64,000 nt of DNA, from NCBI GenBank assembly GCA_015488535.1, contig WFNP01000043.1, positions 1 to 64,000 on the forward strand. Direction: 5' to 3'. Below, one piece after another: positions 17,658-22,340 of this stretch (position 1 is its first letter; each line of letters starts with the position of its first letter). A program made the position numbers and the translations under genes. Origin of the DNA: Nitratifractor sp. (lineage in GTDB: Bacteria > Campylobacterota > Campylobacteria > Campylobacterales > Sulfurovaceae). The notes beneath the pieces were generated by a model. The model made no database searches. It was not told where the DNA came from and saw nothing but the letters and a program-made list of their open reading frames with translations.

Positions 17658-18334
17658 GAGATTACAAGCAGTTGGAGAGTAGATTGGGCTACGAGTTTGG
17701 GAATAAGCAATTGATTATTGAGGCTCTTACACACAAAAGCTATAAGAAGCCTTACAATAATGAGCGGCTGGAATTTCTGGGTGATGCAGTGCTGGATTTG
17801 ATAGTGGGAGAGTTTCTCTTCAAAGAGTTTCCAGACAAAGATGAGGGTGTCTTATCCAAAATGAGAGCATCTATAGTGAATGAGGGAGGTTTTGCACTAC
17901 TGGCACGAAAAATAGGATTGGGAGATTATATATTTTTATCTATGGCTGAAGAGAATAATGATGGTAGAAACAAACCCTCTCTTCTTTCCAATGCTTTTGA
18001 GGCCGTAATCGGTGCAGTATATCTTGAAGCGGGATTGGAAATAAGCAGAGATATAGTGGAGAAGCTTTTGAAAGAGAGTTATCCCAAGATGGATTTGGAT
18101 ACTCTTTGCAAAGATTACAAAACTGCCTTACAGGAGCTGACACAAGCTACTCACGGTATGACACCGGATTATAATCTCCTCTCTTCAATAGGACCTGATC
18201 ATAAAAAAGAGTTTGAAATGGCAGTGGTATTAAATGGTGAAGTGATAGCAAAAGCCAAAGGCAGAAGTAAAAAACAGGCTCAGCAGAAAGCAGCAGAGAT
18301 TGCTTTGCAAAAATTGAAAAAAGAGAGTAAATAA
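17654..18334 (+). CDS. rnc: Ribonuclease III
   Basis: 226 residues. Endonuclease for double-stranded RNA that matures rRNA and trims mRNA. The catalytic signature [18 protein letters not shown] is at residues 35-52, and the second acid cluster is [18 protein letters not shown] near 110. The C-terminal dsRNA-binding domain spans about 155-223 and ends [19 protein letters not shown]. It overlaps rnhA and aroC. Confidence 0.97.
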
Positions 18335-19419
18335 TGAACAGCTTTGGTCAAAGATTCAGATTTACGACATTTGGTGAATCACACGGTAAAGCTATAGGTT
18401 GTATAGTAGATGGTATTCCTGCCGGACTTGATATAGATGTTGATTTTATTCAGTCAGAGCTTGACAGAAGACGCCCTGGTCAAAGTAATTTGGTAACAGG
18501 CAGAAAAGAGGCTGACAGAGTAGAGATACTCTCAGGTGTATTTGAGGGCAAAAGCACAGGTACACCGATAGCTATGGTGATTTTTAATGGTGACCAAAAG
18601 AGTAGAGATTATGATAATGTCAAAGATATATTCCGTCCCGGACATGCTGATTTTACATACTGGAACAAATATGGTATCAGAGATTACAGAGGCGGAGGCA
18701 GAAGCTCAGCAAGAGAGACAGCAGCAAGAGTAGCAGCCGGAGCAGTAGCCAAACTGATGCTCAAGGAAATTGGTATCAAAGTAGAAGCCGGAATATTTGA
18801 GATAGACGGTATCAGAGGTGATGAGAGTAGATTTGATTTTGATTATGCCCGGAAGAGTGAAATTAATGCACTTGATGCAGATATTGAAGCTAAACAGAAA
18901 GAAGCCATAGTTAATGCCAAAGAGAGTCATGATTCAGTAGGTGGAGCGGTATTGTGTAGAGCTACCGGTGTGCCTGTTGGACTTGGTGAGCCAATATACT
19001 ATAAGCTTGATGCAATCTTAGCAGATGCCATGATGAGTATAAATGCTGCCAAAGCGGTTGAGATTGGTGATGGTATAGAGAGTTGTAGAGTCAAAGGGAG
19101 CCAAAATAATGACGGTATTACACCTGATGGTTTTTTGAGCAATCATAGTGGGGGGATACTTGGAGGCATCAGCAACGGTGATACAGTTACAGTAAAAACA
19201 TATTTCAAGCCTACTCCCTCAATATTTAAAGAGCAAGAGAGTATCAATATACACGGTGAGAGTATCAAATATAAACTCAAAGGCAGACATGACCCTTGTG
19301 TAGCTGTTAGAGGTTCGATTGTATGTGAAGCGATGATAGCACTAGTTCTTGCTGATATGTTACTGCTCAATATGGGTAGCAGAATGGAGTATTTAAAGAG
19401 AATATATAACTTGAAATAA
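18334..19419 (+). CDS. aroC: Chorismate synthase
   Basis: 361 residues. Last step of the shikimate pathway: EPSP to chorismate, using reduced FMN. Signatures: FTTFGESHGKAIGCIVDG at the start, GHADFTYWNKYGIRDYRGGG near 107 and RSSARETAARVAAGAVAK near 128, plus GRHDPCVAVR near 313. It ends the block lapB-like/rnhA/rnc/aroC; aroA, the preceding step of the pathway, is at 30040. Confidence 0.98.
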   Translation: MNSFGQRFRFTTFGESHGKAIGCIVDGIPAGLDIDVDFIQSELDRRRPGQSNLVTGRKEADRVEILSGVFEGKSTGTPIAMVIFNGDQKSRDYDNVKDIFRPGHADFTYWNKYGIRDYRGGGRSSARETAARVAAGAVAKLMLKEIGIKVEAGIFEIDGIRGDESRFDFDYARKSEINALDADIEAKQKEAIVNAKESHDSVGGAVLCRATGVPVGLGEPIYYKLDAILADAMMSINAAKAVEIGDGIESCRVKGSQNNDGITPDGFLSNHSGGILGGISNGDTVTVKTYFKPTPSIFKEQESINIHGESIKYKLKGRHDPCVAVRGSIVCEAMIALVLADMLLLNMGSRMEYLKRIYNLK

Positions 19420-19572: not shown

Positions 19573-19750
19573 TATAATCTCTGCCCGTCTGTTTCAGGCA
19601 ACTGTAATGACGGTAAACTGCGTGAAGAATCTTTATCAGGCGATGCACCGGCACGATAAGGGTTGGAGAGGCAGTATCTCAGCCATCCACGCAACATTCA
19701 TTATAAAATGAATATATACATCGGTGCAAAGAAAATATAGGAGGACCGCA
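19573..19750 (+). promoter_or_regulatory. Alpha-operon promoter and structured leader RNA
   Basis: TATAAT at 19573-19578 places the transcript start near 19585, about 165 bases before rpmJ. The leader pairs extensively: CCGTC/GACGG (19585-19589 with 19609-19613); TGCGTG/CACGCA (19619-19624 with 19688-19693) closing a domain; CTTTATC/GATAAGG (19631-19637 with 19655-19661); GGTTGGAGA/TCTCAGCC (19661-19684); ATTCATT/AATGAAT (19696-19713). The loop TGCACCG (19644-19650) is exactly complementary to CGGTGCA (19722-19728), ten bases before the AGGAGG at 19739-19744. This is a pseudoknot-type fold, in principle like the E. coli alpha-operon leader bound by S4, though the sequence is unrelated. Confidence 0.6.
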
Positions 19751-19864
19751 ATGAAGGTCAGACCATCGGTTAAAAAGATGTGCGATGATTGTAAAGTAAT
19801 CAAACGCAAGGGTGTAGTAAGAGTGATTTGTAAAAATCCAAAGCATAAACAGAGACAAGGATAA
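19751..19864 (+). CDS. rpmJ: 50S ribosomal protein L36
   Basis: 37 residues, the zinc-ribbon form: [14 protein letters not shown] and the later [11 protein letters not shown] provide Cys, Cys, Cys and His ligands. L36 is the smallest large-subunit protein and stabilises 23S rRNA near the GTPase centre. AGGAGG lies six bases before the ATG. It is the first gene of the alpha operon here and the direct target of the structured leader upstream. Confidence 0.97.
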
Positions 19865-19866
19865 GC

Positions 19867-20229
19867 ATGGCAAGAATTGCAGGTGTAGATCTACCTAAGA
19901 ACAAAAGAATGGAGTATGCTTTGACATACATCTACGGTATAGGTCTTACAAGTTCAAGAAAGATACTTGATGCTACAGGTATCAGCTATGACAAGAGAGT
20001 ATATGAGCTTACAGATGCTGAAGCGGCAACAATCAGAAAAGAGATTCAAGAGAATTACATGGTGGAGGGAGACCTTCGTAAAAAAGTAATGATGGATATC
20101 AAAACTCTTATGGATCTCGGTAACTACAGAGGTCTAAGACACAGAAGAGGTTTGCCTGTTAGAGGTCAAAAGACTAAAACAAATGCCAGAACCCGTAAGG
20201 GTAAGAGAAAAACTGTCGGTGCAGCGTAA
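19867..20229 (+). CDS. rpsM: 30S ribosomal protein S13
   Basis: 120 residues. S13 lies at the top of the small-subunit head and touches the P-site tRNA and L5. It begins [20 protein letters not shown] and ends with the signature [20 protein letters not shown] followed by the usual basic tail. Two bases separate it from rpmJ. Confidence 0.97.
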
Positions 20230-20242
20230 GGAGCAATGAAAA

Positions 20243-20617
20243 ATGGCTAAGAAAAAGATTAAAAAGAGTGTAGCTAAGGGCGTAGTATATATCGCTGCGA
20301 CATTTAACAATACTGTTATCACTGTAACTGATGAGATGGGTAATGTACTTACTTGGAGCAGTGCAGGAGCATTAGGCTTCAAAGGTAGTAAAAAATCTAC
20401 TCCGTATGCAGCTCAGCAGGCTGTAGAAGATGCTATGAACAAAGCAAAAGAGTATGGCATAAAAGAGGTTGGTATAAAAGTACAGGGACCCGGTTCCGGT
20501 AGGGATACGGCTGTCAAGTCTGTAGGTGCAATCGAGGGTATCAGAGTAACATTCCTCAAAGATATCACTCCGCTTCCTCACAACGGATGCAGACCTCCTA
20601 AGAAGAGAAGAGTATAA
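20243..20617 (+). CDS. rpsK: 30S ribosomal protein S11
   Basis: 124 residues. S11 forms the platform that faces the E-site and the Shine-Dalgarno helix. [19 protein letters not shown] near residue 13 and the C-terminal [11 protein letters not shown] are diagnostic, with [14 protein letters not shown] in between. It follows rpsM by 13 bases with AAGGAG upstream. Confidence 0.97.
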
Positions 20618-20686: not shown

Positions 20687-21313
20687 ATGGCAAGATATAG
20701 AGGTCCAGTTGAAAAACTCGAGAGAAGACTCGGCGTAGATCTAGGGCTAAAAGGTGAGAGAAGACTCGCAGGTAAGAGTGCTCTTGAAAAACGCCCTTAT
20801 GCTCCAGGTCAGCATGGTCAAAGAAGAGCAAAGATTAGTGAATACGGTCTTCAGCTTAGAGAGAAGCAGAAAGCCAAATTTATGTATGGATTGAGTGAAA
20901 AGCAGTTCCGTGCTTTATTTAAAGAGGCAAACAGAAGAGAGGGTAATACCGGAGAGCTTTTGATTCAGCTTCTAGAGCAAAGACTTGATAACATCGTATA
21001 TAGAATGGGATTTGCTACTACCAGAGCATTTGCCAGACAGCTTGTAAATCATGGTCATGTACTTGTAGATGGCAGAAGAGTTGATATCCCATCTTACAGA
21101 GTAAAACCTGGTCAAAAAATTGAAATCAAAGAGAAGAGTAAAACAAACCCTCAAATCATCAGAGCTATGGAGCTAACCAATCAGACTGGTATGGTTGAGT
21201 GGGTAAATGTAGATAAAGACAAACTTTTTGGAATATTTGAGAGAGTTCCAGAAAGAGAAGAGGTGTCAATTCCTGTTGAAGAGCGTCTAATTGTTGAGCT
21301 TTACTCTAAGTAA
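20687..21313 (+). CDS. rpsD: 30S ribosomal protein S4
   Basis: 208 residues. S4 nucleates 16S rRNA folding and in E. coli represses the alpha operon translationally. The start [20 protein letters not shown] and the S4 domain [20 protein letters not shown] (near 96-115) are typical; this form lacks the N-terminal zinc cysteines. It is the obvious candidate ligand of the leader at 19585-19750. The 69-base gap from rpsK contains a small GTCCC-AAAC-GGGC hairpin. Confidence 0.97.
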
Positions 21314-21335: not shown

Positions 21336-22340
21336 ATGAGAAAAATAAAAACTGCACCGTTTTTGCCGACTGAAGTCGAGATAAATGAAATCAGTCCGAC
21401 AAAAGCACAAGTGGTTGCATATCCGTTTGAGAGTGGATATGCGGTTACGCTGGCCCATCCTCTGAGAAGACTTCTTCTAGGAAGCTCTATCGGTTATGCT
21501 CCAATATCTGTCAAGATAGAAGGAGCAGCACATGAATTTGATTCAATCAGAGGTATGCATGAAGATATTGCCATCTTTATCATAAATCTTAAAAGTATCA
21601 GATTTAAGATCAAAGAGGAGATGGGAGAGAGGGTCAAGGTTAGCTACAGCTTCAAAGGACCTGGAAAGATACTCTCGTCGGAATTAAATACTGATGAGTT
21701 GGAAGTAGTAAATGGTGATATTGTAGTCGCTACTCTTAATGAGGATGCAGAGCTTAACTTTACTATGGAAGTAGCCAAAGGTATAGGCTATGTACCTAGT
21801 GAAGATTTGAGAGACAGCATAGACAGCGATGCTATTGCCATTGATGCATTCTTTACACCTGTAAGAAAGGCCAACTACTCTATAGAAAATGTGCTTGTAG
21901 AAGATAATCCGGATTATGAGAAGATAGTTTTTGATATTGAGACTGACGGTTTGATTACACCTGTAGAAGCATTTGGTAATGCTTTAAAGACAATGAATCA
22001 GCAATTGTCAGTATTTGGCTCAATACTAAATCTAGACCTTAGCGTATCAAGTGATATCGCAGGTATCGGAGGTAATGAGCTTAAATCATTTATAGTCCCT
22101 ATTGATACACTTGGACTTAGTGCCAGAAGTTATAATTCTCTTGAAAGAGCAGGTATCAAGTATATAGGCGAGTTGGTTATGATGGGTGAAAAAGAGTTGA
22201 AAAATATCAGAAATCTCGGTTCTCGTTCACTTGCTGAAATACAGGAAGTGCTTGCAGATAGAGGTTTTGGTAGTGATTTTGTACTTGATGAAGATACAAA
22301 AAATGCACTAGCTAAAAAAATTGCACAATTAAAAGAATAA
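21336..22340 (+). CDS. rpoA: DNA-directed RNA polymerase subunit alpha
   Basis: 334 residues. The N-terminal domain (about 1-230) dimerises and holds beta/beta-prime (ESGYAVTLAHPLRRLLLGSS near 30). The C-terminal domain (about 250-330) contacts UP elements and activators; its IGELVMMGEKELKNIRNLG and SLAEIQEVLADRG segments are seen. It follows the usual rpsD-rpoA-rplQ order. Confidence 0.98.
   Translation: MRKIKTAPFLPTEVEINEISPTKAQVVAYPFESGYAVTLAHPLRRLLLGSSIGYAPISVKIEGAAHEFDSIRGMHEDIAIFIINLKSIRFKIKEEMGERVKVSYSFKGPGKILSSELNTDELEVVNGDIVVATLNEDAELNFTMEVAKGIGYVPSEDLRDSIDSDAIAIDAFFTPVRKANYSIENVLVEDNPDYEKIVFDIETDGLITPVEAFGNALKTMNQQLSVFGSILNLDLSVSSDIAGIGGNELKSFIVPIDTLGLSARSYNSLERAGIKYIGELVMMGEKELKNIRNLGSRSLAEIQEVLADRGFGSDFVLDEDTKNALAKKIAQLKE

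Follow-up and report, generated by a model that had tools for sequence, protein, structure and literature searches.

The 5′ leader of the rpmJ-rpsM-rpsK-rpsD-rpoA-rplQ operon in Nitratifractor sp. is, with a probability that we put at roughly 0.6, a cis-acting autoregulatory leader of the Campylobacterota alpha-type operon, in which ribosomal protein S4 would trigger translational repression by way of a three-way junction and a pseudoknot. This reading draws on comparative sequence analysis and on analogy with operon leaders in other phyla. The leader occupies positions 19585–19750 of the window, by which we mean the whole 64,000-nucleotide stretch of DNA that was analysed.

Operon context and elements of the leader

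The leader is the last part of the 331-base gap that separates the end of aroC (18334–19419) from rpmJ. The operon begins with rpmJ (L36; 19751–19864, with its ATG at 19751), which is followed, all on the plus strand, by rpsM (S13; 19867–20229), rpsK (S11; 20243–20617), rpsD (S4; 20687–21313), rpoA (RNA polymerase alpha subunit; 21336–22340) and rplQ (L17; 22350–22700). The operon under the leader encodes S4, as the E. coli alpha operon does. Judged by S13, the nearest named relatives are Campylobacteraceae metagenome-assembled genomes and Nitratifractor sp., at 97–99% identity. The gene upstream of the leader is aroC in the window; in many relatives infA is directly upstream.

The predicted structure, which lies on the plus strand throughout, opens with a 5′ hairpin, P0 (CCGUC/GACGG; 19585–19613). 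Helix P1 pairs UGCGU (19619–19623) with ACGCA (19689–19693). Within it come the junction sequence GAAG (19624–19627), which lies between P1 and P2 and is conserved in at least 97% of 76 leaders, the P2 hairpin (19628–19664; strands AAUCUUUAUC at 19628–19637 and GAUAAGGGUU at 19655–19664) and the P3 hairpin (19665–19688), which begins with an invariant GG...CC and has a conserved UC in its loop. The P2 loop holds the 5′ strand of the pseudoknot, UGCACCG (19644–19650). The 3′ strand, CGGUGCA (19722–19728), ends 11 nt before the Shine–Dalgarno sequence GGAGG of rpmJ (19740–19744) and 22 nt before the ATG. It is displaced downstream in the window because an AU-rich hairpin (19697–19713) is inserted between P1 and this strand, an insertion that is particular to the window sequence and absent from the aligned relatives.

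All the sequences named in the first-pass annotation (UGCACCG, CGGUGCA, the stem CTTTATC/GATAAGG at 19631–19637/19655–19661, the Shine–Dalgarno GGAGG and the ATG) are present where it had placed them. Among the leader's helices, P1, P2 and P3 are conserved, together with the pseudoknot. Visual inspection turned up counterparts of P0 in no family other than that of the window in the genome search (f1, which includes Sulfurovum and Nitratifractor).

Taken alone, the window sequence has an unremarkable nested fold (z = −1.05; 33 of 200 shuffles were equally good). A perfect Watson–Crick 7-mer between the P2 loop and the segment from P1 to the Shine–Dalgarno sequence arises in 0.13% of shuffles. 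The single-sequence fold is not significant; the evidence for structure is comparative.

Covariation in the junction and pseudoknot

We collected the regions upstream of rpmJ from about 130 Campylobacterales genomes. The relatives share a core, CUG-GAAG-A-P2-UUGG-P3-CC, with CAC in the P2 loop and, ahead of the Shine–Dalgarno sequence, a GUG strand complementary to it. Comparison of the sequences shows P1, P2 and P3 arranged as a three-way junction around conserved GAAG...UUGG...CC residues. About 20 nt before the rpmJ AUG lies a strand with which the P2 loop pairs, making a pseudoknot.

When 33 leaders were aligned by sequence (A1), 93.4% of the cells at the 26 proposed pairs held standard pairs, and 22 of the 26 pairs had changed on both sides. 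None of the pairing measures was reached in any of 500 shuffles, and sliding the partners by one base as a control lowered pairing to 47–51%. All 13 aligned pairs of P2 show changes on both sides, with 96% of cells paired, and RNAalifold recovers P2 and P3 unaided. A broad MAFFT alignment that took in diverged leaders (A3) was dropped because P2 was shifted by one base in some rows.

We also applied a home-made, phylogeny-aware test modelled on R-scape, which uses a G-test with average-product correction and a null in which the inferred substitutions are placed anew on the tree. The ten top pairs listed all belong to P2, P3 or the pseudoknot, with E = 0 for five P2 pairs and E = 0.01 for both P3 pair 62–89 and pseudoknot pair 34–126. 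The signal for P2 and P3 is stronger still in a 76-leader alignment than in A1; in several leaders of the larger alignment the 3′ strand is far off or misplaced, which blurs the columns of the pseudoknot.

An alignment-independent swap test compared the pairing of each leader's own segment with that of segments from other leaders. For the pseudoknot (P2 loop against the segment close to the Shine–Dalgarno sequence) the values were 13.1 for own and 9.1 for swapped segments, and for P1, over 39 leaders, they were 13.2 and 11.2. In each case 0 of 20,000 permutations did as well; the leaders, thinned at 90% identity, count as independent in these permutations, although their independence is not full. 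The pseudoknot occurs as the variants GCACC/GGUGC, UACACU/GGUGUA, CCACU/AGUGG, CCGCU/AGCGG and GGCAC/GUGCC. By these comparisons, P1 is supported more weakly than P2, P3 and the pseudoknot.

Compensatory change in all three of P2, P3 and the pseudoknot bears out the earlier proposal of a structured, pseudoknotted operon leader. It survives the phylogeny-aware test, including in the P2 stem and the pseudoknot, the two places where covariation had been suggested as a check. The idea that the complementarity arose by chance amid ordinary base pairing, to which the unexceptional single-sequence fold would conform, retains practically no credibility: covariation already refutes it, and the swap tests, the single model match per genome and the presence of the core in diverged leaders (see below) also oppose it.

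Distribution across Campylobacterota

A covariance model comprising only P2 and P3 (R1), built from A1 and used with a cut-off of E ≤ 0.001, matches 185 of the 397 Campylobacterota genomes searched, always with a single match per genome. The position of rpsD was compared with that of the match in 83 genomes; in every one of them rpsD lies on the same strand, 883–1125 nt downstream. Carriers include Campylobacter volucris, Sulfurospirillum, Sulfurovum and Nitratifractor; here and below we infer the links between genome families and organism names.

For the diverged leaders, a no-filter model search gave weak and some spurious matches and was replaced by a junction-core descriptor with shuffled controls. 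This descriptor, which fires in 3% of shuffled sequences, finds the core in 8 of 11 Sulfurimonas-type leaders, 6 of 10 Arcobacter-type leaders, four of the five from family f23 and one Nautiliaceae-type leader. More Nautiliaceae-type leaders and a variant in family f4 were recognized by eye or with R1. Leaders of the Sulfurimonas, Arcobacter and Nautiliaceae types are mostly without an evident pseudoknot. The descriptor did not find the junction core in Helicobacter (0/9) or in family f14 (0/9). Four members of a Helicobacter-type family (f13; L057, L074, L083 and L090) are without the leader and have a common stretch upstream of rpmJ, CATAGTCGTTTRGGTGATGAATRAGCCTTTGGAGGACTATAAACTCAATG, which could form a hairpin and is possibly a replacement leader in that family.

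On these matches, the leader is a single RNA family across most of the Campylobacterota families sampled, a spread for which its earlier description as lineage-specific is too narrow.

The leader might instead be a conserved structure to which no regulatory ligand binds, serving for example in mRNA stabilization or as a standby site, given that its ligand is deduced from operon content and precedent. We think this very improbable, because GAAG, UC and CAC are unpaired yet highly conserved within helices that covary, as is typical of ligand-binding RNA, and the leader stands as a single copy ahead of a type of operon that is self-regulated.

Promoter, terminator and mode of control

A TATAAT-like box is found upstream of the core in 67 of 67 leaders, and in 58 of them it lies 10–39 nt before GAAG. 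Since 77% of shuffles would also contain such a box at some place, its kept position alone counts as evidence. The box in the window, TATAAT at 19573–19578 on the plus strand, is the −10 element of a likely promoter; it lies 45 nt before GAAG, and the predicted transcript start is at about 19585. A scan for the −35/−10 consensus detected no promoter on the plus strand at the window leader; the likely promoter is instead assigned from the conserved position of the −10 box. The retention of this box immediately ahead of the structure makes a transcript start downstream of 19650 unlikely.

The window's leader has no predicted terminator, so that control is most likely translational; terminators are also absent from nearly all compact leaders. 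In most leaders, which are compact, the pseudoknot strand ends about 19–24 nt before the AUG, a region inside the cover of the 30S subunit. Given the closeness of the pseudoknot to the AUG and the lack of a terminator, a ligand that stabilizes the junction and the pseudoknot would hinder initiation at rpmJ. In the S4 autoregulation that we favour, S4 in excess over free 16S rRNA would bind the junction, and the bound junction would stabilize the pseudoknot beside the ribosome-binding site. Initiation at rpmJ would then be blocked or trapped, and translational coupling would lower expression of the downstream genes, S4 included.

Simple hindrance of this kind is countered by the leaders that are without a pseudoknot and by those in which it is distant from the AUG, lying 68–300 nt upstream of rpmJ in about 17 of 71 leaders. 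The distant pseudoknots would sit well with a leader that works by transcription attenuation, or by RNA processing or stability, and not mainly at initiation. So would two f4 leaders (L061 and L077), about 285 nt upstream of rpmJ, in which a hairpin that resembles a terminator and ends in a run of T (ACCGC...GCGGT-TTTTT) comes directly after the pseudoknot strand; this predicted hairpin suggests that the same leader may act by attenuation in that lineage. As the general mode of control we judge attenuation or stability improbable, since the window and nearly all compact leaders have no terminator and the distance of about 19–24 nt between pseudoknot and AUG is kept in most leaders.

Family f4 also contains four genomes (G003, G040, G105 and G117; leader L006 is similar) in which the leader is distant from rpmJ and the gap holds a second element. 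This consists of GCAGAGTCATCGTRG followed by a hairpin of varying stem just before the Shine–Dalgarno sequence. The 15-base string of the second element is present twice in G117 and a single time in each of the other three genomes.

The probable ligand

S4 is the most likely ligand of the leader, by the content of the operon, which includes rpsD, and by analogy with other phyla. S4 is the confirmed ligand of leaders of the alpha operon or rpsD in Gammaproteobacteria and Firmicutes, where it represses the alpha operon in E. coli and rpsD in B. subtilis, and it has been proposed as the ligand of leaders in Fusobacteriales, Clostridia, Bacteroidia and Flavobacteria (PMC7247131, PMC10931766). Against S4 counts the fact that its gene is not the one nearest to the leader.

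We looked for mimicry of the S4 site using 16S rRNA of relatives, as the window's assembly yielded none. In primary sequence, the best leader matches are not enriched at the S4 site (6 of 71 leaders, compared with 25 of 355 shuffled sequences). Two resemblances in the window, of GCACCG...GGUGCAA to the base of 16S helix 18 and of GAAGAA...GGUUG to helix 16, were dropped because of this lack of enrichment across the 71 leaders. The failure to find a 16S rRNA gene in the window's own assembly, which has an estimated completeness of 100%, probably reflects an assembly gap.

The same leader and autogenous logic might instead serve S13, S11, L17, L36, the alpha subunit or a complex of them. No result singles out S4, the leaders were not found to mimic 16S rRNA at the S4 site, and the genes beside the leader are rpmJ and rpsM. 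Leaders that respond to L17 are known, on rplQ alone (PMC7247131). We regard another ligand as possible but unlikely. S4 is an early primary binder of 16S rRNA and the usual regulator of alpha-type operons elsewhere (PMC7247131, PMC10931766). L36 and alpha are not known as leader ligands. Just as tentative is a model of an undescribed, nearly phylum-wide RNA family that would respond to another operon product or complex, with the junction core as the sensor and the pseudoknot and, in one family, a terminator as exchangeable outputs.

Relation to known leaders

The Rfam search that the first-pass annotation had recommended (cmscan, Rfam 15) found no family above the gathering threshold in the window or in 19 diverse relatives, and a search of the leader up to E = 10 returned chance matches only. 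The lack of a match to the Alpha_RBS (RF00140) covariance model agrees with the earlier view that this leader differs from that of the E. coli alpha operon. The two share the operon type rpsM-rpsK-rpsD-rpoA-rplQ, a pseudoknotted leader and S4 as the presumed ligand. However, the E. coli pseudoknot comprises the ribosome-binding site of rpsM (PMC10931766), whereas the Campylobacterota leader has a three-way junction upstream of rpmJ and a pseudoknot ending 22 nt before the AUG.

The presumed ligand and autogenous logic are also those of the S4 leaders of Firmicutes rpsD (B. subtilis) and of Fusobacteriales, the latter of which also precedes a similar operon. Those leaders have a conserved GUAA that is said to imitate 16S rRNA (PMC7247131); GUAA is not among the conserved columns of the Campylobacterota leader in the 76-leader alignment. 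Unlike the Campylobacterota leader, the B. subtilis S4 site forms no pseudoknot (PMC10931766). For Clostridia, Bacteroidia and Flavobacteria, too, S4 leaders have been predicted, on operons headed by rpsM or rpsD (Eckert and Weinberg 2020); those of Bacteroidia and Flavobacteria are hairpins.

Eckert and Weinberg 2020 do not report an S4 leader for Campylobacterota (PMC7247131), and the main text of Stav et al. 2019, in which Arcobacter sp. L was analysed, has no element matching the leader. Our literature search, with supplements and most subscription papers outside its scope, found no rpmJ or alpha-operon leader described in Campylobacterota; an earlier description is possible. Ribosomal-protein leaders are a known kind of element, and on present comparisons the RNA family and its architecture appear new.

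Implications

How ribosomal-protein synthesis is balanced in Campylobacterota is apparently undescribed: neither Rfam 15 nor the literature searched contains a leader for this operon. The leader offers a well-delimited RNA whose pseudoknot can be tested in laboratory-tractable genera such as Campylobacter and Sulfurospirillum. It would add one more architecture, seemingly unrelated to the others, for a regulator that is probably S4 here too, and would represent a regulatory RNA that has lost its pseudoknot in some lineages while the junction core has been kept.
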